Positions 20,016 through 55,300 of a DNA stretch of 64,000 bases are shown in pieces. The stretch spans positions 1-64,000 of the forward strand of contig CALWPL010000003.1 of NCBI GenBank assembly GCA_944383405.1, in the 5' to 3' direction. The notes beneath the pieces are model-generated. The model saw nothing but the letters and a program-made list of their open reading frames with translations, ran no database searches and was not told the origin of the DNA. Source of the stretch: an uncultured Clostridia bacterium (GTDB lineage: Bacteria; Bacillota; Clostridia; Christensenellales; UBA1242). Position numbers and translations under genes: made by a program. Every line of letters starts with the position of its first letter. Positions within the stretch are counted from its first letter, which is position 1.

Positions 20016-22937
<2,922 letters not shown>

Positions 22938-22983
22938 AGTATATCTTGATAAAGTTGATATTACTACTTTCGTCTATTATATT

Positions 22984-23009
22984 AAATATGCAGTTGTGAT
23001 GGTGCTATT
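22984..23009 (+). other. Right arm of the 23S processing stem
   Basis: Complement of 19746-19771 over 26 nt with one G-U pair. Between it and the 5S gene lies a further self-complementary stretch (about 23016-23034). Confidence 0.8.
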
Positions 23010-23043
23010 TTTACCTTCCTTTTTTAAAAAGGAAAAAATTTAC

Positions 23044-23072
23044 TTGATTATTTCTGTTAATTCAGTTATAAT
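23044..23072 (+). promoter_or_regulatory. Putative independent promoter for 5S rRNA
   Basis: TTGATT (23044-23049), 17-bp spacer, consensus TATAAT (23067-23072). The predicted start, 6-7 nt later, coincides with the mature 5S 5' end. It may supplement read-through from 23S, as no terminator separates them. Confidence 0.45.
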
Positions 23073-23075
23073 ACC

Positions 23076-23198
23076 AGTGATGGTGAAGATAGAGAGAAGG
23101 ATCCACCCGTTATCATTCCGAACACGGAAGTTAAGCTTCTCATCGCCGAAGATACTTGGCTGGACACGGCCCGGGAAATCAGGACATTGCCATCGCAT
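23076..23198 (+). rRNA. rrf: 5S ribosomal RNA
   Basis: CCGAACACGGAAGTTAAGC is the conserved 5S core, and CACCCGTTATCATTCC precedes it. The ends pair through GTGATGGTG (23077-23085) and TGCCATCGC (23188-23196), allowing wobbles, so the boundaries are good to a few bases. Confidence 0.92.
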
Positions 23199-31338: not shown

Positions 31339-31367
31339 TTGACACAAACGCTCTTAGGTGGTAAAAT
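31339..31367 (+). promoter_or_regulatory. Promoter predicting a leaderless mRNA
   Basis: Consensus TTGACA (31339-31344), 17-bp spacer, TAAAAT (31362-31367). The -10 box ends 6 nt before the ATG at 31374, so the transcript should begin at or next to the start codon. Confidence 0.7.
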
Positions 31368-31373
31368 TTTAAT

Positions 31374-32261
31374 ATGAAAAAGTTTTTTTCAGTCCTTCTT
31401 AGAATTATTATGTTATTATCATTTGTAGGCATTTTAGTTTTTGTGTCTATTGCTTTTATCAATAGCCAAAACACTTCGTTTGAGGCATATAACTATGTTT
31501 ACAATAATAAGCAAACGCTAAATTTAGATGAAACAATTGAAAATATTAATAATAATGTAAAAATTAGATATGGGGCAAGAGATGATGTTTATGCTAGTTT
31601 TATCAGTGTTGCTGTAAGTGATATAAGTGAAGGAATTGATTATTTTTTAAATTATTTAGCATTGCAGGACAATATAACAAGAGGCGAACAAGATAGAATA
31701 ATTCGTAGTTTTGACAACATGTCAAATGAGTTGTCTATTGTGAATAATGCTTATAACGAATATATGGAAGCGTATAAAATTGCACAAGAACAAAGTGGAG
31801 CAGAATATGCAGCACAAAATGTTATTGCAAGAGAGATTTATTTAATAGATAGATATATTATTTTTTATAATGCAGAGTCGTTGCTACTTAAAAATATTGT
31901 TGAAATAATACAAGATTATTCTATGGAGCAAATTTCTTATGAAGGTTTGACTTATTTAATAAAAACAGGGCTTTCTGAAGGCGTGATTAGAGAAGTTTTT
32001 GTTGGAGAAAGTCAGGAAGATAGGGGAGATATTGCTAATAATGAACTTGCAAATACATTTTACGAGTTTGATATTAGGTCGACAAGATTTTCAAACAAAG
32101 ATGTTGTTCTAAATGAGAGTTTACGCACTTTTGTAGAAGATTTGAATCATCTTAATATTTACAGTTGGGCTGGTAATTATGATGGCTATATTGCAAATTT
32201 AACAGGGACAACTAAGGCAAGGGCAATAAGTGCTAAGAGTTTTTTTGATAACAACTTTTAG
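31374..32261 (+). CDS. Orphan membrane-anchored protein, 295 aa
   Basis: Not recognised. An N-terminal helix (about 4-28) is a signal anchor or signal peptide; there is no lipobox. The rest is mostly helical, with many Asn, Tyr and Glu. The only ribosome-site-like bases (AGGTGG) lie inside the promoter, too far from the ATG, and the -10 box ends 6 nt before the ATG, so a leaderless mRNA is likely. The lipoprotein gene at 32274 follows 12 nt later, so the two probably form an operon and may act together at the surface. Confidence 0.6.
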   Translation: MKKFFSVLLRIIMLLSFVGILVFVSIAFINSQNTSFEAYNYVYNNKQTLNLDETIENINNNVKIRYGARDDVYASFISVAVSDISEGIDYFLNYLALQDNITRGEQDRIIRSFDNMSNELSIVNNAYNEYMEAYKIAQEQSGAEYAAQNVIAREIYLIDRYIIFYNAESLLLKNIVEIIQDYSMEQISYEGLTYLIKTGLSEGVIREVFVGESQEDRGDIANNELANTFYEFDIRSTRFSNKDVVLNESLRTFVEDLNHLNIYSWAGNYDGYIANLTGTTKARAISAKSFFDNNF

Positions 32262-32273
32262 GGAGGAAGAATT

Positions 32274-33299
32274 TTGAAAAAGAAGTTTGCTTTAATATTA
32301 ATTTGTATTTTGTCTTTTGGCATATTCTTTTTTACTGGTTGTAATGAAACAAATTACACAAAAGAAGATGTTGAAAATCTTTATAGTAGTATAATAGATG
32401 AATATGGCGATGATGATGGTTTGTTAAATTTAGGCATTGACATAAGTCTTGTTGTTGAAGGTGGCATTATAAATCAAGATAAAGCCTATATTTTTCCACT
32501 TGTTTATAACAAATACATTTCTTGTGCGTCAGGAGTGTGCTTTGGCTCATCACAAAGGCAAGGTAAGACATTGATTTATTCAATAAATAACTTTGAGCAA
32601 GAAGAAATAAACGAGATTTATAATAAACTCATTCGTGTAAGAGAATCAATAAAAAGTTTTGTTAATGCTAAGTACATTTTTGAAAATAGTAAGGGAAACT
32701 TATATTATATGGAGACTATTGAGACTTTAAACACTCTTATAAGTGATTTGTATTCTTTAAATGATTCTTTCTCTGAATATTATTTTAAATATTTTTATAC
32801 AGATTTTTCACAGGAATCAGTTCTAGCAGAAGGTAGTTTAAAAGATTTTATGTGGTATCAATTATGTTCTATTTCAAAGGTTTCTTTTGAGTATGAGTTA
32901 AAAACATTTAAAATGAGTAATCCTTATGGCGAAATTGAAACTTGGTTTGCAAATACTCAACTTATAAAAGACTTTATTGCAATTTCTGAGCGGGCTATTA
33001 ACTATTTAAAAAACGACAATCTTCTTGCTGGAGTTTTTGAAAATAATAAAGCATTAATATTAGATATTTTAAAGAATATACAATATGAGATGTCAGGGTT
33101 TGAAAGCGAATATTCTTTATTTTTAAGAGCGTTAAATAATGTTAATATTAGGGAATATTTTACATCAGTAAATCAAGACGCATATAAGGAGTCTCTAACT
33201 AATTTAGAAAAATCAAGTTTTGAAATTATAGATTCTTTTATAGAAGGAAGATATACAGGCTTTATGGAAGGGCTTACTAGTATTATTAATTATCTTTGA
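32274..33299 (+). CDS. Orphan lipoprotein, 341 aa
   Basis: Starts with TTG behind GGGAGGAAG. The signal peptide ends in FTGC with Cys23 as the lipid site, so it should be anchored on the outer face of the membrane. The body is helical and acidic, with no known domain that I can see; a short CASGVCFG motif with two cysteines lies near residue 88. Probably co-transcribed with the anchored protein before it. The gene pair is followed by gltX after 65 nt. Confidence 0.62.
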   Translation: MKKKFALILICILSFGIFFFTGCNETNYTKEDVENLYSSIIDEYGDDDGLLNLGIDISLVVEGGIINQDKAYIFPLVYNKYISCASGVCFGSSQRQGKTLIYSINNFEQEEINEIYNKLIRVRESIKSFVNAKYIFENSKGNLYYMETIETLNTLISDLYSLNDSFSEYYFKYFYTDFSQESVLAEGSLKDFMWYQLCSISKVSFEYELKTFKMSNPYGEIETWFANTQLIKDFIAISERAINYLKNDNLLAGVFENNKALILDILKNIQYEMSGFESEYSLFLRALNNVNIREYFTSVNQDAYKESLTNLEKSSFEIIDSFIEGRYTGFMEGLTSIINYL

Positions 33300-33364
33300 T
33301 TACTAGGAGTAAAGTAAGAAGAATAGCGACAAAATTACTAAAAATAAATAATTAGGAGAGAAAA

Positions 33365-35044
33365 ATGGATTATATTAAATTAGCAAATTTACTTTTTCCA
33401 GATGTAGATTTGACAGTAAAAGAGTGTTTCGAGGCGTTCCCAAAAAGGATTCTGCCAGAAAAAGCAGAAGTTGTTCGTATTGCACCTAGTCCAACGGGAT
33501 ATTTACATATAGGTTCTGTTTATGGGGCATTTATAGATAAGTTAATTGCTTATCATACAAATGGTGTGTATTATATGCGTCTTGAAGATACAGATAGTAA
33601 AAGAGAAGTTGAAAACGCAGGCGATATAGCATATAATATGCTAAGCCTTTTTGGTTTAAAGCCAGACGAAGGTTATGCAGGTTCAGATAAAAAAGAAATA
33701 GGGGCTTATGGAGAATATGTTCAGAGTAAAAGGCAAAGGTATTATCTTGCATTTGCAAAGCATCTTGTAAGTATTGGCAGGGCATATCCTTGTTTTTGTT
33801 CAGGCGGTGGGAGCAAAGAAGACATTTTAAAAAGAAGGCAAGAAGAACTTGAAAAAACAAACGATATAGAAGAAAAAGATAAATGTAGAGATTTAACATA
33901 TGAAGAAATTGAAAAAAATATTAAGGATAACAAACCTTTTGCAATTAGATTAAAATCTAGTGGAAATCCTGAAAGGACATTTTCTTTTAAAGATGAGATT
34001 AAGGGAGTTAGAGAAATAAGAGAAAATGCAAAGGATATAGTTATTTTAAAAAGTGATTTTACTCCGCCTTATGCTCTTGCTCATGTGGTAGATGATTCGC
34101 TTATGCAAACTACACTTGTAGTAAGGGGGGAGGAATGGTATCCATCTCTTGCGAGTCATTTAGAGTTATTTAATGCGTTTAATATAAAACCACCAAAATA
34201 TGCACATACACCTGTCGTGTGTAAAATTGATGAAGATGGCAATAAAAGGAAGTTAAGTAAAAGGAAAGACAAGGAAGCCGATGCAAGATATTTTATTGAG
34301 CAAGGTTATCCGGTGAGCAGCGTGATGGAATATCTGCTTAATTTAATTAATAGTGATTTTGAAGATTGGAGAAGGCAAAATCCTACATTATCATACTTTG
34401 AATTTCCGTTTAAAGTGTCAAAAATTGGTTCTAATAATCCTATGTTTGACTTTCAAAAGTTAAATGATTACTCAAAACAAGTTATAAGTAGATTTAGTGC
34501 ACTAGATGTTTATGATAGGTGTTTATCTTGGGCAAAATCTTATGATAACGCTTTTTATAAAATTTTAAGAGATAAAAAAGATTTTTCAATAAAATTATTT
34601 AGTATTGATAGAGAAGGCAAAAACCCAAGAAAAGATATTGCAAAGTGGAGTGATGTTTCTTCGCTTTATGATTATATGTTTTTTGGAGTTGAAAATAAAA
34701 ATTTAGCCGATTATGAATTTGATGAAAATTTATTAAAAGAAGACATTATAAATGTTCTTAGTGAATATAAAAAAGTTTACAATAGACAAGATGATAAACA
34801 AACTTGGTTTGATAAAATTAAAGCCATTTGTCCAAAATTTGGCTTTTGCGACAATATGAAAGATTTTAAAAAAGAGCCACAAAAATATAAGGGTAGTGTG
34901 GCAGATGTTAGCGGGATAATAAGAGTTGCTACAACGACAAGAAAAAATACTCCTGATTTATATTTTTTACTTGACCTTATGGGAAAAGAAGAAATTAATA
35001 ATAGAATTGATAAAGTTATTAAATTATTAAGAGAAGGGGAATAG
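33365..35044 (+). CDS. gltX: Glutamyl-tRNA synthetase
   Basis: Class I synthetase that charges tRNA-Glu. APSPTGYLHIGS (residues about 40-51) is the HIGH region, and KLSKR (296-300) is the KMSKS loop. YYMRLEDTDSKREV and VVRGEEWYPSLASHLELF are typical. At 559 residues it is longer than the common 470-500. Part of this is an N-terminal extension of about 35 residues before the HIGH domain, and the rest is in the helical C-terminal domain. GGAGAG precedes the ATG. The small membrane-protein gene follows 2 nt after the stop. Confidence 0.94.
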   Translation: MDYIKLANLLFPDVDLTVKECFEAFPKRILPEKAEVVRIAPSPTGYLHIGSVYGAFIDKLIAYHTNGVYYMRLEDTDSKREVENAGDIAYNMLSLFGLKPDEGYAGSDKKEIGAYGEYVQSKRQRYYLAFAKHLVSIGRAYPCFCSGGGSKEDILKRRQEELEKTNDIEEKDKCRDLTYEEIEKNIKDNKPFAIRLKSSGNPERTFSFKDEIKGVREIRENAKDIVILKSDFTPPYALAHVVDDSLMQTTLVVRGEEWYPSLASHLELFNAFNIKPPKYAHTPVVCKIDEDGNKRKLSKRKDKEADARYFIEQGYPVSSVMEYLLNLINSDFEDWRRQNPTLSYFEFPFKVSKIGSNNPMFDFQKLNDYSKQVISRFSALDVYDRCLSWAKSYDNAFYKILRDKKDFSIKLFSIDREGKNPRKDIAKWSDVSSLYDYMFFGVENKNLADYEFDENLLKEDIINVLSEYKKVYNRQDDKQTWFDKIKAICPKFGFCDNMKDFKKEPQKYKGSVADVSGIIRVATTTRKNTPDLYFLLDLMGKEEINNRIDKVIKLLREGE

Positions 35045-35046
35045 AA

Positions 35047-35337
35047 ATGGTAATTTTAAAGAGTTTTTCTGGAATATTAAATATAATAGGTCAAATACTT
35101 GCATTTTTAACTATTATTATGCTAGGGCTTATTTATTTAAATGACGCTTTACCTGTTAAATTTTTACCAGAAGATTTTTATAACACACTTGTAAGTATAA
35201 AGGAGTATGCGGTAATTATTACAATAACTGTTTGCGGTTTTGCTTTTGCATGCAAACGCTCATTAATTATATTTATTCCTTTTTGCATTTTAGCAATTTG
35301 TGCGCTTGCGTGTTATTCAATAACATTGTTTGGTTAA
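35047..35337 (+). CDS. Small three-helix membrane protein, 96 aa
   Basis: Not recognised. Three hydrophobic segments (about 8-31, 49-68, 70-94) fill nearly the whole protein. Its ribosome site (AAGGGG) lies inside the end of gltX, and only 2 nt separate the genes, so it is read from the gltX transcript. Confidence 0.6.
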   Translation: MVILKSFSGILNIIGQILAFLTIIMLGLIYLNDALPVKFLPEDFYNTLVSIKEYAVIITITVCGFAFACKRSLIIFIPFCILAICALACYSITLFG

Positions 35338-35423
35338 TAAATAGTTAAATTTTACTCAATTTTTGCATAAAAAAAGTACAAGCCCTCATAGATATAAAAT
35401 ATAAAAAATTAAGGGTGATAAAA

Positions 35424-36944
35424 TTGAGTAAATCTAATAAAAAGAAAATTGCATTAAAAATTGTTATTATTTCACTTATATTATTGCTAGTATTAGGAAT
35501 AGTTATTTTTGCTCTTATTTCATGTAAAGATAATATTTTAAAGCAAGGCGAAATAACTAATTATACTTTAAATTTAAGTTTTGATGAAAGTAATAATACA
35601 TTAACAGGTATTCAAGAGACGGATTATATTAATAATTATGAAGTGGTGTTAAAAACACTTGAATTTCATCTGTATCCAAATGCGTTTAGAACTGACGCTG
35701 TCTATCGCCCTGTAAATACACTTAATTATCAAAGGGCATATCCTAATGGATTTTCATCTGGTGGGATTACTATAAAAAGTGTAAAAGTTGATGGTCAGAG
35801 TAAAGAAATTAATGTTACTGGAAATGATAAAAATATTCTTGAAGTTGAGTTAAATGATGATTTATATCCTGGAGATAGAGTTTTAGTTCAACTTGAATAT
35901 GTTGTGCAACTGCCAAATTGTTTACATAGGTTTGGGTATGGGGATAATACCTATAACTTTGGCAACTTTTATCCTATTGCAAGTATTTATGAACAAGGGT
36001 CTTTTAGAGAAGATAATTATGGGGCAAACGGCGACCCTTTTTATAGTCAAATGTCAAATTACGATGTAACAATAACTTACGACGATGATTTTATTCTTGC
36101 AAGTTCAGGGGAACAATTAAATACAACTTTATCTAATGGATTAAAGACAACGACAATTAACGCAGATGCTGTAAGAGATTTTGCTTTTGTGCTTAGTAAA
36201 AACTTTTCGGTTATTTCAAAAAAGACAGGTAATACAATGGTTTACTATTATTACTATGATGATGCAACGCCAGAAAAAAGTTTGCAGGCAGGAGTCGATG
36301 CTATAAGCACCTTTAATAATTTATTTGGAGAATATCCATATAAAACATATAGCGTTGTTAAGGCAAATTTTATACATGGGGGTATGGAATATCCAAATTT
36401 AGTTTACATTTCAGATAGTGTAGAAGATTATGAAGATTATATTAATGTGATAATTCATGAAACTGCTCATCAATGGTGGTATAATTTAGTTGGGAGTAAT
36501 GCTTGTGAATATGCATGGTTAGACGAAGGGCTTACAGAATTTTCAACCCTGTTATTTTACAGGTATAATAAGGGTTATAATGTAAATATAGAAGATAGTT
36601 TAAATGCTTCACTCTCAAGTTATTTACTTTTTAGTGAAATTTATGAAAGTGCATACGGAGAGTTTAATAGTACAATGAGCAGAAATGTAAATGATTTTTC
36701 AGGCGAAATGGAGTATGTGTATGTTACTTATGTTAAAGGAGTTTTATTTTTTGACTCATTAGAAGAAACTATTGGGGAAAAGAATTTTTTAAAGGCATTG
36801 AAACATTATTTTAAAGAAAATGAATTTAAAATTGCAACTCCTGATGATATGATTTCTAGTTTTGAAATAGTAACAAAAAGAAGTTTGGAAGGATTTTTTG
36901 ATTCTTGGATAAATGGGAAGGTTATTCTTCAGAATTATGATTAA
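35424..36944 (+). CDS. M1-family aminopeptidase-like lipoprotein, 506 aa
   Basis: The zinc site is complete: HETAHQWW (His345, Glu346, His349) and, 18 residues on, WLDEGLTEF (Glu368), the M1 pattern. The exopeptidase motif that usually reads GAMEN appears as GGMEYP near residue 315. The N-terminal helix ends in LISC (Cys34), which fits a lipobox, so the enzyme probably works outside the membrane on peptides. AAGGGTGAT lies before TTG 35424, which I chose over the in-frame GTG at 35415. The C-terminal helical domain of large M1 enzymes is absent, as in short bacterial members. Confidence 0.87.
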   Translation: MSKSNKKKIALKIVIISLILLLVLGIVIFALISCKDNILKQGEITNYTLNLSFDESNNTLTGIQETDYINNYEVVLKTLEFHLYPNAFRTDAVYRPVNTLNYQRAYPNGFSSGGITIKSVKVDGQSKEINVTGNDKNILEVELNDDLYPGDRVLVQLEYVVQLPNCLHRFGYGDNTYNFGNFYPIASIYEQGSFREDNYGANGDPFYSQMSNYDVTITYDDDFILASSGEQLNTTLSNGLKTTTINADAVRDFAFVLSKNFSVISKKTGNTMVYYYYYDDATPEKSLQAGVDAISTFNNLFGEYPYKTYSVVKANFIHGGMEYPNLVYISDSVEDYEDYINVIIHETAHQWWYNLVGSNACEYAWLDEGLTEFSTLLFYRYNKGYNVNIEDSLNASLSSYLLFSEIYESAYGEFNSTMSRNVNDFSGEMEYVYVTYVKGVLFFDSLEETIGEKNFLKALKHYFKENEFKIATPDDMISSFEIVTKRSLEGFFDSWINGKVILQNYD

Positions 36945-36983
36945 TAATTATTTAAAATGTTAATTACTTTTTATATTTAATAT

Positions 36984-36992
36984 GATATAATA
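36984..36992 (+). promoter_or_regulatory. Extended -10 promoter of the hydrolase gene
   Basis: TGA followed by consensus TATAAT (36987-36992). The start near 36999 leaves a short leader with an AGAGGA ribosome site before the ATG at 37013. Confidence 0.5.
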
Positions 36993-37012
36993 TGTAGTCA
37001 AAAGAGGAAATT

Positions 37013-37804
37013 ATGAGAACTGTAAACTTATCAAGTGGGAGCAAGGGGAATTGTACTTATATAGAGTCTAGTCAAGCAAGGGTTTTGATTGATGATGGCT
37101 TATCTTATATAAATTTAAAACAAAGACTATCACAAATTGGAGTTGAGCCATCGAGTATAGATGCAATTCTTTTAACTCATGAGCATACTGACCATTTGGG
37201 TGGAATAAATAGTTTTTTAAAAAAGAATAAAAACGCAAAAGTATACATACCTGCCTTTGCAAAAGATTTTTGTATTTCTAGTATAATGGAATTGCCGCAA
37301 TCTCAAATTGTTTGGTTTACAACAAGTGATTTTTTTATAAAAGATATAACAATCTCTTGCTTTGTTTTACCACATGATAGCAAGTTTTGTGTAGGGTATA
37401 GTTTATACTTTTCTCAAAGAAAAGTTAGTATTGCAACGGACTTAGGTTATATATCAGATGACATTATAAATTGTCTTGCTGGAAGTAATATTTTGTATCT
37501 TGAAAGTAACCATGATGAACATTTGCTTATGAAAAATCCTAAGTATCCTATGAAAACAAAAAAAAGAATTCTTAGTAATAAAGGACATTTATCAAATAAT
37601 GCTTGTGCTCATGCACTTGCAAGATTAATTCCAAGTGGAGTTGTGCAAGTCGTTCTATCTCATTTAAGTGAAGAAAATAATACTCCGAACCTAGCCTATT
37701 CTACTATAAAAAGTATTTTACAAGATTATGGTATTGTTGAAGGTAAAAATGTTTTTGTTGATGTCGCCTATCAAAATAAAATTGGAACAATATTTAATTT
37801 GTAG
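37013..37804 (+). CDS. MBL-fold hydrolase of the YycJ/WalJ type, 263 aa
   Basis: The metallo-beta-lactamase metal site HEHTDH is at residues 56-61, behind LASGSKGN-like NLSSGSKGNCTYIE and VLIDDGLS, as in YycJ/WalJ. Known members are nucleases or hydrolases linked to DNA repair and cell-wall control, usually next to the walRK two-component genes. Those genes are not here, so the link is not preserved in this window. Further ligands are seen in LPHDSKFCVGY and SHLSEENNTP. It stands alone between its own promoter and terminator. Confidence 0.88.
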   Translation: MRTVNLSSGSKGNCTYIESSQARVLIDDGLSYINLKQRLSQIGVEPSSIDAILLTHEHTDHLGGINSFLKKNKNAKVYIPAFAKDFCISSIMELPQSQIVWFTTSDFFIKDITISCFVLPHDSKFCVGYSLYFSQRKVSIATDLGYISDDIINCLAGSNILYLESNHDEHLLMKNPKYPMKTKKRILSNKGHLSNNACAHALARLIPSGVVQVVLSHLSEENNTPNLAYSTIKSILQDYGIVEGKNVFVDVAYQNKIGTIFNL

Positions 37805-37840
37805 TTTGTTTTAATTTACTTTTTATATAGTAAAAATTTT

Positions 37841-37872
37841 CTTTTCATAAACTTTTATGAAAGGATTTTTTT
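37841..37872 (+). terminator. Terminator after the MBL hydrolase gene
   Basis: CTTTTCATAAA pairs with TTTATGAAAGG (one wobble), followed by ATTTTTTTA. Confidence 0.7.
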
Positions 37873-37970
37873 ATATTTACTCAAAAATAGTTTGTTTTTA
37901 AATTTTTCTTTTTAAACAAATAAGAAAATTTTTAATATTAAGTTTTTTTTTATAAATTAATATTTATAAA

Positions 37971-38000
37971 TTGATTATATACTTTAATTTATGCTATAAT
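37971..38000 (+). promoter_or_regulatory. Promoter predicting a leaderless mRNA
   Basis: TTGATT (37971-37976), 18-bp spacer ending in TGC, consensus TATAAT (37995-38000). Six T separate it from the ATG at 38007, so no ribosome site can exist. Confidence 0.7.
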
Positions 38001-38006
38001 TTTTTT

Positions 38007-39020
38007 ATGAAAAAAAATTTTTTTAATTACCGAGATGGAAGTTTAGTTTTTTTATTCGCAGTACTTGGATTTTTAATTATAAGTATTATTATGAGTCAAT
38101 TATTAGGAATAATAAGTAATGCTAGCAATATTGAATTTACACAACTATCACAATCAAACTGGGTTGCATGGTTAAATTGCCTATTAACCGAATTAGTATA
38201 TTTTTTAGTGGTTTTAATATATTGTAAAACAAAAAAAATTGAGTATTTTGTTGCAAGTAAAACAAAAACGAAGTTTAATGTAAAGGTTTTTTTAATAACA
38301 ATTTTAATAGGCCTTGTTGTTTTTTTTGCAAGTATTAACTTTACAGGTCTTTTTAACTATTTATTTTCATTTATTGCACCTATAAGTAATGGGAATATTC
38401 CATTAGGAAACTTTGGGGAGTTTATTATTACTGTTATTACTTACGCACTTTTACCTGCGGTTTGTGAAGAAATTTTATTTAGGGGTGTAATTTTTAATTC
38501 TCTTAGGCATAAAATGAATGTTACTTGGAGTATTATTTTAAGTGCTTTTATTTTTGCTTTAATTCATTTTTCTATTTTTCAAACAATTCATCAATTTGTT
38601 ATGGGGATAGTTTTGGCGATTCTTTGTTATTACACAGGAAGTATTTTTTATGGTATGATATATCATTTTGTTAATAATTTTATTATAATTTTGATTTCTT
38701 ATATTACAAGTAATTCTGGACTTGAATTTTCTTCATGGGGAAGTGTTGAAATTATACTTTCTATTACGATTTTCTTTATAGGAATTGGCGTTACTATTTT
38801 ACTTTTATATTTAGTAAAAAGATTTTCAAATAAGAAAAAAGAAGATTATGACAACGAAAAACAAATTATTTTTGAACAAAATAGATTTAATTACAAAGGG
38901 CTAAGTGATAAAGAAGTTGCTAGCATTTTTAAAAAAGAAAATAGGGAAAGTTCATTTATTTTGTTTTCAACTATTATTTTTTGTATACTGATTTGGTTTA
39001 TGAATTCATTTGGGGGATAA
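38007..39020 (+). CDS. CPBP-family intramembrane protease (first), 337 aa
   Basis: Glutamate-type intramembrane protease of the Abi/CPBP family. The conserved motifs are CEEILFRGVIF (the EExxxR box), FALIHFSIF and YHFVNNF, each within membrane helices; about eight helices are visible. The C-terminal tail is charged. No ribosome site is present, and the -10 box ends 6 nt before the ATG, so I discard the longer frame from 37971 and infer a leaderless start. A second family member follows 1 nt downstream. Substrates may be membrane or lipid-linked proteins; none is known. Confidence 0.88.
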   Translation: MKKNFFNYRDGSLVFLFAVLGFLIISIIMSQLLGIISNASNIEFTQLSQSNWVAWLNCLLTELVYFLVVLIYCKTKKIEYFVASKTKTKFNVKVFLITILIGLVVFFASINFTGLFNYLFSFIAPISNGNIPLGNFGEFIITVITYALLPAVCEEILFRGVIFNSLRHKMNVTWSIILSAFIFALIHFSIFQTIHQFVMGIVLAILCYYTGSIFYGMIYHFVNNFIIILISYITSNSGLEFSSWGSVEIILSITIFFIGIGVTILLLYLVKRFSNKKKEDYDNEKQIIFEQNRFNYKGLSDKEVASIFKKENRESSFILFSTIIFCILIWFMNSFGG

Positions 39021-39021
39021 T

Positions 39022-40146
39022 ATGGAAAAGAAGTTATCAACATTTTCTTGTGCAATGTTAACATATTTTGTAATGCTAATATGTTTTGTAATTATTAGAA
39101 TTATTTTTTTGTATGTAACGCTACCATTTAGTGATAGTGTGAATGATTTAATAGTTACTATATTTATTCAAGGCGGACTTATGTTTGCAGTTGCTATTTT
39201 TATGTTTTCAGGACTTAAAAAGCAAAAAGTAAAAACAACTTTTGCTGATTTTGGCTATAAAAAAGTAGAAATATATCCAATATTAATTAGTATTTTAATA
39301 GGTATTGTTTGCTATTTTCTAAATTTATTTATTGCTTCTTTTTTTAATACATTAATTTCATTATGCGGTTATGAGTCGGTGCCGGCATTTTCAGGAAGCG
39401 GTTCGGATTATTCTACTTTATCATTTGTACTTCAAGTAATAAGCGTTGCCCTGCTTCCAGCAATTTGCGAAGAAACTGCACACAGGGGACTTCTTTTACA
39501 TGGGTTATCATGCATTGGCATAGGGAAAGCAATGCTAATATCTTCTCTGTTATTTGGGTTAATGCATCTAAATATAAATCAATTTTTTTATGCTGTTGTT
39601 CTTGGCTTTATTATTGCTTTGTCTGTCGTTGTTAGTAAAAGTATTTTTCCTGCGATAATAATTCATTTCATGAACAACTTTTTGAGCACATATTTTTCGT
39701 TTGCAAGCCACAACAATTGGATAGGGGGAAATATTCCTCAACTTTTAGAAAACTTTTTGTATGGCGGCGGGAATGTGTTTGCTTACTTTTTAACTAGTCT
39801 CTTAACTCTTGCTTGTCTTATATTATTTTTAGTTTTACTATTTACAATTTTATTAAAAGAAACGAGAATAAAAGGCGTTGTAAAAATGCTTAATGATATT
39901 TCACAAATTAATAAAGAATATCAGTCTCCAAATAGTAAAATAGAAAGAAATAAAAATTTGATTAATATGTACGAAGTTAATAAACTTATGGGAGAATATA
40001 ATATTAAAAGTTTAAATAGTATGGTGTTTACTGATATAGAAAATAAAGGGAGAAAACTTGATAAATTTGAAATAATTAGTCTTGTTTCGTGTATTGTTAT
40101 AGGTGCTATAATTACAATTTCAACATTTATTTGGGGAGTACTATAA
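39022..40146 (+). CDS. CPBP-family intramembrane protease (second), 374 aa
   Basis: Shows the same three boxes as its neighbour: CEETAHRGLLLHG, FGLMHLNINQF and IIHFMNNFLS. About nine membrane helices can be drawn, and a soluble segment (about 285-345) precedes the last one. GGGGG just before the ATG overlaps the end of the first gene, so the two are coupled. The sequences differ too much to be a recent duplication, which suggests different substrates or a two-part protease. rlmH follows 1 nt after the stop. Confidence 0.88.
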   Translation: MEKKLSTFSCAMLTYFVMLICFVIIRIIFLYVTLPFSDSVNDLIVTIFIQGGLMFAVAIFMFSGLKKQKVKTTFADFGYKKVEIYPILISILIGIVCYFLNLFIASFFNTLISLCGYESVPAFSGSGSDYSTLSFVLQVISVALLPAICEETAHRGLLLHGLSCIGIGKAMLISSLLFGLMHLNINQFFYAVVLGFIIALSVVVSKSIFPAIIIHFMNNFLSTYFSFASHNNWIGGNIPQLLENFLYGGGNVFAYFLTSLLTLACLILFLVLLFTILLKETRIKGVVKMLNDISQINKEYQSPNSKIERNKNLINMYEVNKLMGEYNIKSLNSMVFTDIENKGRKLDKFEIISLVSCIVIGAIITISTFIWGVL

Positions 40147-40147
40147 A

Positions 40148-40615
40148 ATGTATAAAATAAATATTGTATGTGTTGGGTCGTTGAAAGAAAAATATTTTAT
40201 TTCTGCACAATCGGAGTACTTAAAGCGTCTTAGTAGATTTTGTGAAATAAATTTAGTAGAGTTGCCAGAATTTAAACTGCCAGCATCTCCAACATTAAGC
40301 CAAATTGAGCAGGCATTAGATAAAGAATACGAGCAAATACTTTTGTATTTAAAAGGGAAGGTCATTATACTTGCAGTTGAAGGGAAGATGCTTGATAGTA
40401 ATGAGTTTGAAAGAGAATTATTTAAAAATTTCAATACTTGTGGCGTTATAACATTTGTGATAGGTAGTTCTTATGGCATAAGTAGTAAGTTAAAAAATAA
40501 TTATTTAATAAGTTTATCAAAGATGACTTTTCCACACCATTTAGCACGCATAATGCTTGAAGAGCAGATTTATAGAGCCTTTACTATTCATAATAATATA
40601 ACCTATCACAAGTGA
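40148..40615 (+). CDS. rlmH: 23S rRNA pseudouridine-1915 N3-methyltransferase
   Basis: SPOUT-class methyltransferase that modifies helix 69 of 23S rRNA in the assembled ribosome. The family pattern is clear: INIVCVGSLKEKY at the start, ITFVIGSSYGI for the knotted cofactor site, and the ending LSKMTFPHHLARIMLEEQIYRA. Normal length at 155 residues. GGGGAG precedes the ATG, coupled to the protease gene upstream. The target loop is present in the 23S gene of this window, at about 21938-21965. Confidence 0.95.
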   Translation: MYKINIVCVGSLKEKYFISAQSEYLKRLSRFCEINLVELPEFKLPASPTLSQIEQALDKEYEQILLYLKGKVIILAVEGKMLDSNEFERELFKNFNTCGVITFVIGSSYGISSKLKNNYLISLSKMTFPHHLARIMLEEQIYRAFTIHNNITYHK

Positions 40616-40619
40616 GAAT

Positions 40620-40649
40620 TTGTCAAACTTTTTTTATTTTAAATATAAT
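40620..40649 (+). promoter_or_regulatory. Promoter predicting a leaderless mRNA
   Basis: TTGTCA (40620-40625), 18-bp spacer, consensus TATAAT (40644-40649), ending 6 nt before the ATG at 40656. No ribosome site lies between. Confidence 0.65.
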
Positions 40650-40655
40650 AAAATA

Positions 40656-41495
40656 ATGAGTGAAATATATAGTTTATTAAAAAATAAAATAGAAGAATTG
40701 AAAAAAAACACAAAGTATTTTATTGCTGGCAAAAGTCAACTTGGTGAAGATATCATTGCGTTTGAAATTGGAAGTAGAACGGACAAGACAATTCTTGTTC
40801 AAGGAAGTATTCATGCAAGGGAATATATAACCGCCTTTTTATTAATTGAAATAATAAGGTATTTAAAAAATTTTGAAATAGATGGTAGAGTTATAATTGT
40901 CCCACTTGCAAATCCTGACGGAGTTAGAATTTGTCTTGAAGGATATGAGTTTATAGAAAAAAAAGAACAAAAAGAAATAGTAAAAAATATTCTAAAAAGG
41001 TCAGATAGAAAACTCTATAAAGCAAATGCAAATGGAGTTGACTTAAATGTTAATTTTGATGCAAACTGGGGGCAGGGAGCAAGTAACTTTTTTGATTATC
41101 CTTGGTATGAAAACTATGTAGGAAAATATCCTAATTCAGAAGTTGAAGTAAGAACTCTTATTGATTTAACAAAAAAGGTTGCACCCTTTTTAACTTTAAG
41201 TTATCATAGTAAAGGGAATGTGATTTTTTATGGATTTGAAGGGCAATCAAAAAAGAGCAAAGAAAATGAGAAAAAATATCTTGAAGTTATTGTAGATAAA
41301 ACAGGTTACGCCCCAATTTTTACTCAGAATAGTACGGGTGGATATAAAGACTACTGTTTACTTAAATTAGACATAATAGGATTTACAATAGAAGTTGGGA
41401 ATGATTATTTGTCTCATCCAATTGGATTAGAACAGTTAGATAGTATATTTAACAGAAATAAAGATTTAATAATTGAACTTTTAAAGGTAAAATAA
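40656..41495 (+). CDS. M14-family zinc carboxypeptidase, cytoplasmic, 279 aa
   Basis: The metal ligands are in place: SIHARE (His53, Glu56) and the later histidine in LSYHSKG. Substrate contacts NPDG and GVDLNVNFDANW follow the family, and the catalytic Glu is in FTIEVGND. Enzymes of this group include those that cut gamma-D-glutamyl-diaminopimelate bonds of wall peptides. Lacking a signal peptide, this one probably trims recycled wall peptides inside the cell. A frame from TTG 40620 would swallow the promoter; the ATG at 40656 fits a leaderless start. tadA follows 3 nt later. Confidence 0.87.
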   Translation: MSEIYSLLKNKIEELKKNTKYFIAGKSQLGEDIIAFEIGSRTDKTILVQGSIHAREYITAFLLIEIIRYLKNFEIDGRVIIVPLANPDGVRICLEGYEFIEKKEQKEIVKNILKRSDRKLYKANANGVDLNVNFDANWGQGASNFFDYPWYENYVGKYPNSEVEVRTLIDLTKKVAPFLTLSYHSKGNVIFYGFEGQSKKSKENEKKYLEVIVDKTGYAPIFTQNSTGGYKDYCLLKLDIIGFTIEVGNDYLSHPIGLEQLDSIFNRNKDLIIELLKVK

Positions 41496-41498
41496 ATT

Positions 41499-42245
41499 AT
41501 GCAAGAAAAATTTATGAAGAAAGCACTAGAGCAAGCAAAAATCGCTTTAAAAAATGGAGAAATACCAGTTGGAGCGGTTATAGTTAGGAATAACGAGATT
41601 GTATCAATGGCTTGCAATAGTAGAGAACAAAAACAAAATGCAATAAATCACGCAGAAATACTTGCAATTAGTAAGGCATGTAAAAAATTAAAGAGTTTTA
41701 GATTGGATGACTGTGAGATGTATGTAACGCTTGAACCCTGTGCTATGTGTACAGGGGCCATATTAAATTCAAGATTAAGGAAGATATATATTGGATGTAA
41801 AGATGATTTTTATGGTTGTTCTGGTGGAAAGATTAATTTATTAAATGGGGAGTTTGGGATAAAAGTTGATGTTGAATTTGACAGTAAAAATAAGGAATGT
41901 AAAGAGTTATTAGATAGGTTTTTTATTAATGTTAGACAAAAAAATAAGGTTAAAAAGATGTTAGGGGAAATAATTTCTTTTAATTGTCAAGATAATCAAT
42001 TTTTTTATCAAGATGATGTTTTAGGAAAGATTTTTGTGTATAATTTTTTACCAAAAAGCAAAAATGCTGGACAGGTAGTTGCGATAATTGAAGATTTGAA
42101 AAAAAACAATATTAGTTTTGTTGTGTCAGACAAACTTGAAAATATTTTTGCAGATGATATTTTTTTAAAAGTAAAGGATAATTATAAAAAAACAACTATA
42201 AAAATATTTACAAAAAATAAAGAAAAAAAGATATATAATACTTAG
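41499..42245 (+). CDS. tadA: tRNA adenosine deaminase with C-terminal extension, 248 aa
   Basis: Converts adenosine 34 to inosine in tRNA-Arg. Zinc and catalytic residues are present: HAE (His51, Glu53) and PCAMC (Cys81, Cys84), with IPVGAVIV and GAILNSRLRKIYIG nearby. The deaminase ends at about residue 150. A further 95 residues form an alpha/beta segment (FFYQDDVLGKIFVYNFL and onward) that I do not recognise and that usual TadA proteins of 150-170 residues lack. It follows the carboxypeptidase gene by 3 nt without a strong ribosome site. Confidence 0.92.
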   Translation: MQEKFMKKALEQAKIALKNGEIPVGAVIVRNNEIVSMACNSREQKQNAINHAEILAISKACKKLKSFRLDDCEMYVTLEPCAMCTGAILNSRLRKIYIGCKDDFYGCSGGKINLLNGEFGIKVDVEFDSKNKECKELLDRFFINVRQKNKVKKMLGEIISFNCQDNQFFYQDDVLGKIFVYNFLPKSKNAGQVVAIIEDLKKNNISFVVSDKLENIFADDIFLKVKDNYKKTTIKIFTKNKEKKIYNT

Positions 42246-42249
42246 TTAG

Positions 42250-42278
42250 TTGACAAATTTATGTTAAAAAACTAACAT
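42250..42278 (+). promoter_or_regulatory. Promoter predicting a leaderless mRNA
   Basis: Consensus TTGACA (42250-42255), 17-bp spacer, TAACAT (42273-42278), ending 6 nt before the ATG at 42285. The bases between contain no ribosome site. Confidence 0.6.
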
Positions 42279-42284
42279 AAAAGT

Positions 42285-43070
42285 ATGAATAATTTTATTT
42301 TATCAACTGAGTTATTGACTGAGTTTGAATTATCATCTCCACAAGAACATAAGATAAGGGCTGTTGTTATTTGTCAAAACAAATTAAAAAGTTTATATAA
42401 TGAAGACCTTATGGGAAAGTGTGTTAAAGAGTGGGTAATAGACTCTTTAAAGTCATTTGAAACTCAGGAAATTTATATAGATGACAATAAGAAAAGTTTA
42501 ATTGAAATAGTTACGCCAATTATAAAAGATGAAGATTATTTAATAGTTCTATATGCAGATACGCCTTTAATAACTGAGGATGTCATATTTGATGCTGTTG
42601 AATACGCAACGACAAAAAATCTTGATTTTTGTAAATTGTATCGTGGTGCAATAATTAAGACTGAAGCAATAAGAAATAATAGTTTTGAATATTCCTCAGA
42701 AGCAAATTTTTTAGATAAAGAAGCGTTTTTTACTGTTTTTGACAACAAAACCATTACTCACGCAAGACAAGTTTTAAAAAACAGAATACTTGATAGTTTA
42801 GTTAAAAATGGCATAAATTTTTTTGACAAGTCTAGTTGCTATATTGAGGCACAGGTTGAAATTGCAAGTAATGTAAAGATTTATGCAAACAATGTAATTA
42901 AGAAATTTTCTAAAATCATGCAGGGAAGCGTGCTTGGAGAAAACAATATAATTATAAATAGTGAGATTGGAGAAAATTGTCAAATTGTTTCTTCGTTTAT
43001 ACAAAATGAAAAGATAAAAAAAGGAAGTAAAATTGGTCCTTTTGCAAAATTAAATGGAGCAAAAAAATGA
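42285..43070 (+). CDS. Shortened GlmU-like protein, 261 aa
   Basis: Resembles a cut-down UDP-GlcNAc pyrophosphorylase/acetyltransferase. VLYADTPLITED matches the GlmU metal-site region, and ARQVLKNRI precedes a short left-handed helix (CYIEAQVEIASNVKIYAN, then SVLGENNIIINSEIGENCQI). The nucleotide-binding start LAAGxGTRM is missing, and so is most of the acetyltransferase domain; GlmU normally has about 455 residues. The gene order glmU-like, pth, mfd matches Bacillus (gcaD ... pth ... mfd), which supports descent from glmU. It overlaps pth by 4 nt. It is probably no longer a normal GlmU; its present role is unknown. Confidence 0.7.
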   Translation: MNNFILSTELLTEFELSSPQEHKIRAVVICQNKLKSLYNEDLMGKCVKEWVIDSLKSFETQEIYIDDNKKSLIEIVTPIIKDEDYLIVLYADTPLITEDVIFDAVEYATTKNLDFCKLYRGAIIKTEAIRNNSFEYSSEANFLDKEAFFTVFDNKTITHARQVLKNRILDSLVKNGINFFDKSSCYIEAQVEIASNVKIYANNVIKKFSKIMQGSVLGENNIIINSEIGENCQIVSSFIQNEKIKKGSKIGPFAKLNGAKK

Positions 43071-43591
43071 AATTAATTGTTGGACTTGGGAATCCTGGAA
43101 AAGAGTATGAAAATACTTATCATAATATAGGATTTTTGGCACTTGATAAATTAGCAAAAAAACTTGGAATTAGCATAAATAAATCAAAATTTAATTCTAT
43201 ATATGGACAAGGAAAATACAATGATGAAATTGTTTTTTTAATAAAGCCCTTAACATATATGAATTTAAGTGGTAATGCTGTAAGCCAGTTTGCAAGATTT
43301 TATAAAGTTTCTCCACAAGACATAATTGTTTTTTGTGATGACATTGACCTTGAAAAAGGCGTTTCAAGATATAGAGAGCATGGTAGCGGTGGAACTCATA
43401 ATGGACTTAAAAGCATAGTGTATTCTTTATCATCTGAAAACTTTAAGAGAATTAAAATTGGGGCTGGAAATGATAAAAGTATTGATTTAAAAGATTATGT
43501 GCTAAGCAAAATTGATGAGAATAGTTTAGTTCTTATAAATAAGGCTATTGACGAAGGAATTGAAAAAGTGTTAAAATTGATAGGTAAATGA
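43067..43591 (+). CDS. pth: Peptidyl-tRNA hydrolase
   Basis: Releases tRNA from peptidyl-tRNA that drops off ribosomes. VGLGNPGKEYENTYHNIG gives Asn9 and catalytic His19; FCDDIDL gives the paired Asp, and GSGGTHNGLKSI is the conserved glycine loop. 174 residues, a little short but complete. The start overlaps the GlmU-like gene and the end overlaps mfd, each by 4 nt, so the three genes are translationally coupled. Confidence 0.95.
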   Translation: MKLIVGLGNPGKEYENTYHNIGFLALDKLAKKLGISINKSKFNSIYGQGKYNDEIVFLIKPLTYMNLSGNAVSQFARFYKVSPQDIIVFCDDIDLEKGVSRYREHGSGGTHNGLKSIVYSLSSENFKRIKIGAGNDKSIDLKDYVLSKIDENSLVLINKAIDEGIEKVLKLIGK

Positions 43592-52394: not shown

Positions 52395-55300
52395 ATGAAA
52401 AAAGTTTTTCTTTTCTTATCAATTTTTTTACTATCTTTGTCAACAGTTTTAGTTGCATGTAACGAAGATAGGTACGCTGATCTTCGAGTATCTCTTGTTT
52501 CAATTACAAGCGACTCTGGAAGAGAAGTTACATACAATGAAGAAGGGGGCTACTATGAAGTTTACTATGGAGATACAATAACAATTTCTTCAAGGGTTTC
52601 TTCTTCTAGTAATGTTAGTAGTATGCTAAATTATGTTAGTGAAAGTAATGAATCTTTTCCACGCATAGGACACACAGATACAACGGCAACCTTTGGAGCA
52701 ATGACTCCTTCAAAGGATAGTAGATTTAGAGTTACTGTTTCTTCGATAGAAACGAGTAGAGGTTCTTTGAGTCTTTATTTTAAAGTGTTGCTTCCTGTTA
52801 GTCAGATAGACATATCTGATAACTTAGGTGTGATGGTAGAAAAAGATATTGATTTGAAAGACGAAGTAAAATATTACAGTGATTTAGTTTCAGACTCAAC
52901 TGTTGAAGCAGATGTTGATGAGAAAGAAGTATTTTTTGAGTTAGATTATTACATAGATGAAACAGGAACAAGAATAAGTCTTGTTGAAGAAAATGGAAAC
53001 TATAGTCTTGCAAACGATGATTCAAATACGCCTGCTTTTAGATTGAATAATGGAGTATTAAGTGTTATAGATGCTTCTCTTGATGGGCAAATTGGGCTTG
53101 TTGTTAAATCAGAAAAATACGACGAAGGGCTTGAAGATTATTTAGAGTCATCTTCTTTGTCTGAACAAGAGAAAGAAACTTTAAGAAAACAGAATAATAG
53201 ATTAATGGTAGAAAGAGAAGTCGAAATTGTTACACCTATTACCCTTGATGATATTGAGTTTAGTGGAGGACAAGTTTCATTTGAAGGCTATAATAGTGAG
53301 GCGGGAAATAAACATGTAAAATTATTTGCGCTTTTATATAACAATTCTGCTGACAAATATTCATTTGATAATAGCGAATTTTCTTATTTTTATGAAGATA
53401 TTATAGTTTCTGTTATGTCAAGCGAAGATTTTGATATTGTTGCAGAAATTGGAACAATGGTAATAGGCGACGAAGAATATAAGAGCCAAGATGGTGTTAT
53501 TAAAATATCAAATAATGACTCGGAGCACCTAATTACTTCAAATGGTAATGTTGTTGGAAGAAGTCAAAGCTTTAGGGCTTTGTCAGAAGGGACAGGTATT
53601 GCTTATATTGATTTTGTAATAAACTATGCTTTTGATAACGATATAAGTTTTAGTTTTTCAGAACTTTATAAAGACTATCTAAATTCTCTTGATAGTATGG
53701 ATTATGAGGCATTAAATGATTGGGAGAAAAATACAAAAGTTGAATTTGAAGTAAGTTCTATTCCAAGTTCAATTGCCGTTACACAAGATGGGAATCAAAT
53801 AGATGAAGAAGGCTTAACAATTTTTGATTCTTATGCTAGTTCAACTAATGGGAGTAAAATAAGTGTAAATTTAGATACAATAGGAGTACTAGACGAAGAT
53901 AAAATTGTTAGGATATATATTACAAGTGCAGCGGGTGTTAATGTTTCAAATTTTTTTGAAATTAGAAATGCAAATGGTAATTTGATTACAATCAATACGC
54001 AAGTTGAAGATTCTCAAACTTTATATTATTTTGATATTGATTTATCTAATGAGTTTAATAGAGAATTTTATATTAAGGCAAAAAATGTTACAGAAAATCA
54101 AAGTTTCACTTTAAGTTTTGAAAACATCATTGGTTCTCGTATTTATAACAGAAATGGGGAAGAAATTGTTCCAGGAATAAATGGCTCTACTCTTGAAGGT
54201 AAGATTGTTAGTTTTAATACAGAGATTGCAAAAGGTATTACTAATATAGAAGTAATGGCTATTAATGGAGAAAATTATTATAGTATTGATAGCGCTCATA
54301 GAGCAGAAAATGTTGAAACATATAGACAACTTGTTTTAGATGTTGATAATGCTGGTGGAACACTTCTTGCATATTTCTTTGATGATGGTTTGCAAGGGGA
54401 AATTACACTTACTGGTTACGATGAGAGTATTATTGAACTTGTTCCGACTTCTTCCACAGTAGATTCTTATTTTGATGAAGCATTAATAAATAATCAAGAT
54501 TTGCAATTAGGAGATGTTGTTGCTTTTAGGGGACTTAAAGTAGGAAATACAACTATAACATTCACTGCTGAAAATGGGTATAGTGTTAGTGTTAATGTAA
54601 GTGTTGTGAATAAAGCTGAAAATGTTAAAGTTTTGCTTCGTGAAACTTATGAAGAAGGTGTAATAACAGAAAATTCTTTAAATACATCTTCGCCTTTTGC
54701 AAGTGCAAAATTTGGACATTTTTTTGATATTATTTATACAACAAGTAGTTCAAATACATCTGGTGTGATAAGTTATAGTTATGAATCAAGTAATCCAGCG
54801 GTGGCTTTTATAAATCAGTCAGGCAGAGTTACAACCCTAAGTGCTGGCGTTACAACAATAAACGCAGTTGTAAGTTATTATACATTTGAAAGAGTCAATG
54901 GGTTTAATCAATGGGCACAAAAAGATTATACTTTATCTTTTGACTTGAATGTTTTTATTCCTGCGTCAACTTTTAACTTAAATGCATCAGTCATTAATGT
55001 TTATGATGTTAATTCATTACCTTTTGACATGGCAGGACAGGCAGATGTTAGTTTGACTTTAAGTATTGGAGATTCTGATGCAACAATTGCAAGCCCTGAA
55101 TATGAAGACAAGATTATTTTTGAAGTAGAACAATCGGGAGTTCGTTACTTAAATGCAAATTATGTTAATGGGAATAAAGTTGTTGGAAGAACATTTAATG
55201 CAACGGCAACTTTAAGAAATAATGAAACTTCTGCAAGTGTTGTTGTTACAGTTACGATTGACCAATTTGGGCAAATAATCACAAGAAATTGCATAATCAA

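Follow-up and report, generated by a model that had tools for sequence, protein, structure and literature searches.

Predicted leaderless mRNAs alongside Shine-Dalgarno-led genes in an uncultured clostridial genome and its relatives

Leaderless genes of bacteria carry a TA-like signal, a -10-like box whose first T lies about 12 nt before the start codon, and have no Shine-Dalgarno (SD) site (Zheng et al. 2011, PMC3160421). In the low-GC genomes of that survey the box has the fuller TAtAAT consensus with a preceding TG, and among Firmicutes the leaderless genes were found mainly in Lactobacillales and Mycoplasma (PMC3160421). About 8-9% of Streptococcus mRNAs are leaderless, conserved between species and coexistent with SD genes (PMC4448216, PMC6431027); in one of these studies the leaderless share was 8%, all with AUG and 90% beginning at the A (PMC4448216). 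In transcription start site (TSS) maps of Clostridia, a few percent of the sites are no more than a few nt from a start codon (PMC5171806, PMC9045289), with 2-3% in solventogenic strains (PMC9045289), and the apparent leaderless cases of C. phytofermentans generally retain a ribosome-binding site (RBS) and have another TSS upstream (PMC5171806). Leaderless genes make up on average ~19% of genes in Actinobacteria and 39% in Deinococcus-Thermus (PMC3160421), where the -10 box, a looser TANNNT, abuts the open-reading frame (PMC3160421, PMC3898074, PMC12340547).

The genes described here share with the signal of Zheng et al. the position of the box, the TAtAAT consensus with TG and the missing SD, but their lineage is a clostridial order, apparently Christensenellales. 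As in Streptococcus, they start with AUG, coexist with SD genes and tend to keep their state between relatives; the streptococcal cases, however, were mapped experimentally and in another class of Bacillota, whereas ours are predicted from sequence, and here a given gene often differs in mode between relatives. The other Clostridia belong to the same class, but the genes here lack an RBS. The -10 box abuts the reading frame as it does in Actinobacteria and Deinococcus-Thermus, yet the layout covers ~6% of genes and includes a full -35 box and TATAAT. Targeted searching with partial coverage of the literature returned no report of leaderless mRNA in Christensenella or Christensenellales. The phenomenon is known; the lineage and the switching within a family appear to be new.

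The genome comprises 1.33 Mb on 20 contigs, is 98% complete and has ~30% G+C, and the window, the whole stretch of DNA that was analysed, consists of bases 1-64000 of its contig 3. The glutamyl-tRNA synthetase encoded in the window has relatives at 77, 69 and 67% identity from uncultured Christensenella sp. and Clostridia bacterium, and NCBI assigns Christensenella to the order Christensenellales of Clostridia, which suggests the order name used here. An earlier note had described four genes of the window with -35/-10 pairs, spacers of 17-18 bp and a -10 box ending 6 nt from the ATG; the sequence confirms this arrangement, with promoters of the sigma-A type on the forward strand. The gene at 31374 has the junction TTGACA-17-TAAAAT-6-ATG (15.2 bits), with its -35 box at 31339..31344 and its -10 box, extended by TGG, at 31362..31367. 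The junction of the gene at 38007 is TTGATT-18-TATAAT-6-ATG (12.0 bits; -35 box at 37971..37976, -10 box extended by TGC at 37995..38000), that of the gene at 40656 is TTGTCA-18-TATAAT-6-ATG (10.3 bits; boxes at 40620..40625 and 40644..40649) and that of the gene at 42285 is TTGACA-17-TAACAT-6-ATG (9.5 bits; boxes at 42250..42255 and 42273..42278). Among internal ATGs, ~0.04% (0.2 per 509) have a promoter scoring 8 or more at precisely 6 nt, so that by simple arithmetic ~0.01 such junctions would be expected among the ~35 genes of the window, against the four found; the spacing is thus beyond chance, as had been supposed. As a fixed value it did not stand, since 6 nt is the mode of a genome-wide range of 6-10 nt, and the four genes are part of a genome-wide class and not a special set.

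Most other genes of the window have SD sites, as noted earlier, and the absence of a ribosome site holds for 38007, 40656 and 42285, which have duplex energies of 1.5 to 2.3 kcal/mol and are not SD-led. It does not hold literally for 31374, where AGGTGG occurs at 31356-31361, 13 nt upstream. This motif is too distant for ordinary SD pairing (the duplex reaches -2.9 kcal/mol if the usual spacing is required and -7.2 if it is not), and, because it lies in the spacer between the -35 and -10 boxes, it would fall outside an mRNA made from that promoter. It is also missing from all three orthologues in the syntenic relatives L004, L005 and L006.

The product of the first gene (31374..32261, 295 aa, predicted leaderless) is an orphan, as described earlier, without a Pfam or NCBIfam match, and domain searches bear out the calls of a CPBP/Rce1-like intramembrane protease for the second (38007..39020, predicted leaderless; PF02517, E=1.6e-20) and of an M14 zinc carboxypeptidase-like protein for the third (40656..41495, predicted leaderless; PF00246, E=1.5e-28). 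The GlmU-like call for the fourth (42285..43070, 261 aa, predicted leaderless), which heads a run continuing with pth and mfd, was only partly upheld: a GlmU match exists (E=1.7e-24), but it is limited to about residues 207-330 and lies well below the family cut-off, so this product may not be a full GlmU. Read-through from the gene ~40 bp upstream could give 40656 and 42285 a leadered transcript as well. The protease gene is the first of a tandem pair of CPBP (Rce1-like) genes (38007-40146), of which the second has an SD, and the pair is syntenic in three relatives. At 43548-43588, within the 3' end of pth, a candidate promoter TTGACG-18-TAAAAT ends 10 nt before mfd; it is kept in L004, which is uninformative because of the coding constraint on pth.

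Other features of the genome were also recorded. A frame of ~7,695 aa, beginning MKKVFLFLSIFL and preceded by a good SD, opens at 52395 of the window and runs beyond 64000, probably encoding a giant secreted or surface protein. The 23S and 5S rRNA genes at 20016-23195 of the window have no adjoining 16S gene, the sole 16S found being on another contig (C7:1048-2608), so the rRNA genes look unlinked. At C6:14288-15868, a PolC-like gene of only 526 aa, corresponding to the N-terminal part with the exonuclease domain, is followed by a rimP-like gene; it represents a truncated PolC, a split PolC or an assembly error.

To place the four junctions in a genome-wide frame, a generic sigma-A promoter matrix (-35, spacer, -10 and TG extension) was scored at each distance from the first ATG of mechanically called genes over 864 kb (65% of the genome), made up of two stretch sets (800 kb) and the window, with a score of 8 or more counted as a strong promoter. 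Strong promoters ended 0 to 5 nt from the ATG in 1, 0, 0, 0, 1 and 0 of the scanned genes, at 6 nt in 16, at 7 nt in six and at 8 nt in none, while the internal-ATG control gave ~0.2 at 6 nt; the 6-nt peak was reproduced when the -10 box was scored alone. The earlier note had proposed such a count, split by ribosome site, and on held-out sequence the predicted peak at 6-7 nt emerged in the genes lacking an SD. Among 104 such genes outside the window, strong promoters numbered 11 at 6 nt, six at 7, five at 9 and two at 10, against a mean of 0.28 per position (17 at 6 and 7 nt together, P=7e-20), with hardly any beyond 15 nt. The 356 SD genes outside the window had a single strong promoter at 6 nt; between 7 and 14 nt there was none, and their promoters were otherwise spread over 15-54 nt. 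Two promoter layouts therefore do coexist, one with the -10 box at 15-54 nt and an SD, the other with the -10 box at 6-10 nt and none.

At the strict threshold, 28 of 502 genes (~1 in 18, ~6%) are leaderless-type, compared with 76 SD genes that have a detectable promoter; 31374 is not among the 28, having been classed as SD by the script on account of its AGGTGG. The class has the marks of known leaderless genes: a -10-like box at a sharply preferred distance (mode 6 nt, i.e. -12 to -7), would-be mRNAs without an SD, and AUG starts. GTG and TTG starts gave no distance peak in this genome or in the family. About 60 of the genes in which no SD was scored have no strong promoter within 60 nt, and some of these probably have wrong starts; absence of an SD alone thus does not define the class.

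Transcription by sigma-A usually begins 6-7 nt past the -10 box, preferably at a purine that follows a pyrimidine. In our genome and the family together, 47 of 51 leaderless-type genes (92%) have a pyrimidine immediately before the ATG, compared with 324 of 620 SD genes (52%; p=4.5e-9). Promoters closer than 6 nt would start the RNA within or past the AUG and are nearly absent; this absence and the pyrimidine at -1 are both predicted by leaderless transcription that starts at the A of the ATG. The genes with a 9-nt distance, 13 when pooled, have T at -1 in 13/13; in addition, position -3 is a purine in 11/13 and position -4 a pyrimidine in 10/13. The five that form the 9-nt peak of our genome (C1 68126, C4 104210, C7 29470, C2 5093 and C4 49344), which encode MnmE, MiaB, TilS, a HAD hydrolase and a Xer-like recombinase, have A at -3 and T at -1 in 5/5. 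Genes of this 9-nt group have either 3-nt leaders, which are possible, or a distant start, and for those at 9-10 nt a leader of 3-4 nt is equally likely as none.

The whole block of the window is present in L004, L005 and L006 in the same gene order, and three of the four junctions are kept there although the proteins are only 35-55% identical (35-48% for the orphan at 31374) and the upstream DNA around the conserved junctions is otherwise unalignable. In L004, L005 and L006 respectively, the promoter lies 8, 6 and 9 nt before the orthologue of 31374 and 6, 6 and 7 nt before that of 38007. The 42285 promoter stands at 6 nt in L004 and L006, while L005 has an SD (gggggaaaa) in its place. The junction at 40656 is poorly conserved, with TATAAT-6-ATG but no good -35 box in L004 and no scoring promoter in L005 or L006. 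The SD genes between the four, gltX and pth, have no such junction. In the family sample, orthologues have the leaderless state in common far more often than chance would give (12 shared, odds ratio 15, p=2e-7), with the caveat that not all pairs are independent because several are recN or the window block itself. Within the family, recN varies between a leaderless-type and an SD-led form.

For a wider comparison, the same pipeline was applied to 63 relatives and 20 outgroup genomes, with ~20 kb taken from each. Leaderless-type genes numbered 23/393 in the family and 20/560 (11/294 plus 9/266, in two samples) in other families of the order, at GC contents of 0.27-0.68, and each group of the order has members with distances of 7-10 nt. 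In the sample from other clostridial orders the count was 0/289, with promoter detection there about half as high; set against SD promoters, the contrast is 20:53 in the order versus 0:23 in the other orders (p=0.003). The nadK gene for NAD kinase, which sits upstream of recN, is leaderless-type in 15/37 stretches from other families of the order versus 0/18 from other orders (p=0.001), where an SD is present in 18/18. Leaderless-type nadK was found up to 62% G+C, three of the 15 having a possible GTG start (in higher-GC families), and the SD-led nadK genes of the order often have the same TGTATAAT-like box farther upstream with the SD between box and start. In L102, L201 and L197 a palindrome resembling an ARG box (TTGAATAATTATTCAA in L102) overlaps the leaderless nadK promoter, which suggests that the nadK-recN operon may be under ArgR control. 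The overlap may help to conserve the promoter sequence. An ArgR operator in place of a promoter was considered and rejected, as it leaves the fixed distance to the start and the missing SD unexplained.

The 28 genes include repair and recombination functions (recN, recJ, addB, mfd, an ogg-like glycosylase and a Xer-type recombinase), RNA-modification functions (miaB, mnmE, tilS, threonylcarbamoyladenylate synthase, dusB and an RluA-like synthase), a NifS-like desulfurase, RNase HI and lepA. A random 20 promoter-proximal SD genes contained L9, HPF, GAPDH, RpoA, AspS, MarR/TetR regulators and others, with no RNA-modification gene among the 20. The leaderless set leans to DNA-repair and RNA-modification enzymes, a lean that is post hoc and small. 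Codon usage differed weakly and not significantly between leaderless-type and promoter-proximal SD genes (p=0.20).

Several other explanations of these junctions can be weighed. Words resembling TATAAT are common at ~30% G+C, and chance in a genome of 70% AT would be the simplest account, but at 6 nt the internal-ATG control of this genome yields 0.2 against the 16 found at gene starts, and genomes of the order with 50-62% GC share the layout; together with the contrast between genes with and without an SD, this rules out chance as a general explanation and leaves it a negligible probability. Scarcely more credible is the misassignment of start codons, in which the true start would lie downstream behind an SD. 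Start choice was indeed mechanical, taking the first ATG, but downstream in-frame SD starts are no commoner in leaderless-type genes (2/28) than in SD genes (31/365), and on that ground the explanation was rejected. The orthologous proteins also align from the first Met, and the N-termini of leaderless-type genes fit known proteins such as RecN, LepA, MnmE, MiaB, RNase HI and TilS.

Alternatively, the mRNAs could start farther upstream or arise by read-through, with AU-rich, unstructured leaders bound with the aid of S1 and the TATAAT incidental. Several of the genes without an SD do lie 30-50 bp after a same-strand gene, and an ORF with several S1 domains is present; we nevertheless consider this unlikely, as it leaves unexplained the 6-nt peak of a -10 box with a -35 box at the correct spacing, the pyrimidine-purine initiator and the conservation of the exact junction, and promoters at 15-54 nt are almost absent from these genes. 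Ultra-short leaders, with a start 1-4 nt before the AUG, overlap with leaderless transcription as a sub-case that probably applies to part of the class, to which the second possible initiator of the 9-nt group and the 7-10 nt members throughout the order both point. As an account of the class they seem doubtful, although better placed than the alternatives above, given that the modal distance of 6 nt puts the usual start on the A of the ATG and that the pyrimidine at -1 prevails overall and is T even in every gene of the 9-nt group.

Leaderless and SD initiation used side by side, with orthologues switching between the two modes, is thus our best reading of the sequences. The earlier prediction of mRNAs that begin at or beside the AUG is supported by the held-out peak, the initiator bases, the few promoters at 0-5 nt, the conservation and the restriction to one order, and, if leaders of 0-4 nt are counted as leaderless, we put at roughly 0.87 the probability that most of the class has leaderless mRNAs. 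From the layouts, distance peak, initiator bases, conservation and spread, all read from the DNA, we infer both where the mRNAs begin and how ribosomes bind them. The housekeeping sigma factor would start transcription on the A of the AUG or no more than about 4 nt away from it, and the ribosome would recognise the 5'-terminal AUG directly, without anti-SD pairing. This is the simplest account, and it follows the pattern mapped in streptococci (PMC4448216, PMC6431027). Known leaderless cases use 70S-type initiation. SD initiation would serve most genes and leaderless initiation the rest; the 16S tail, ...GGATCACCTCCTTT, carries a canonical anti-SD, so the cell should be able to use SD sites.

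If this reading is correct, a large and mostly uncultured gut clostridial order would join the short list of lineages that use leaderless mRNAs widely, a contrary case within the class Clostridia, for which TSS maps have called such mRNAs rare. Callers that rely on SD sites may misplace gene starts in metagenome-assembled genomes of the order. The switching of orthologues between leaderless and SD modes within one family would offer a natural comparison of what each mode does. It is an evenly balanced proposition that coexistence of the two modes across the order, apparently Christensenellales, is an ancestral trait, with recN, nadK and the 42285 operon switching repeatedly by movement of the -10 box relative to the start, and that genes may fall to one mode or the other according to their expression or stress regime.
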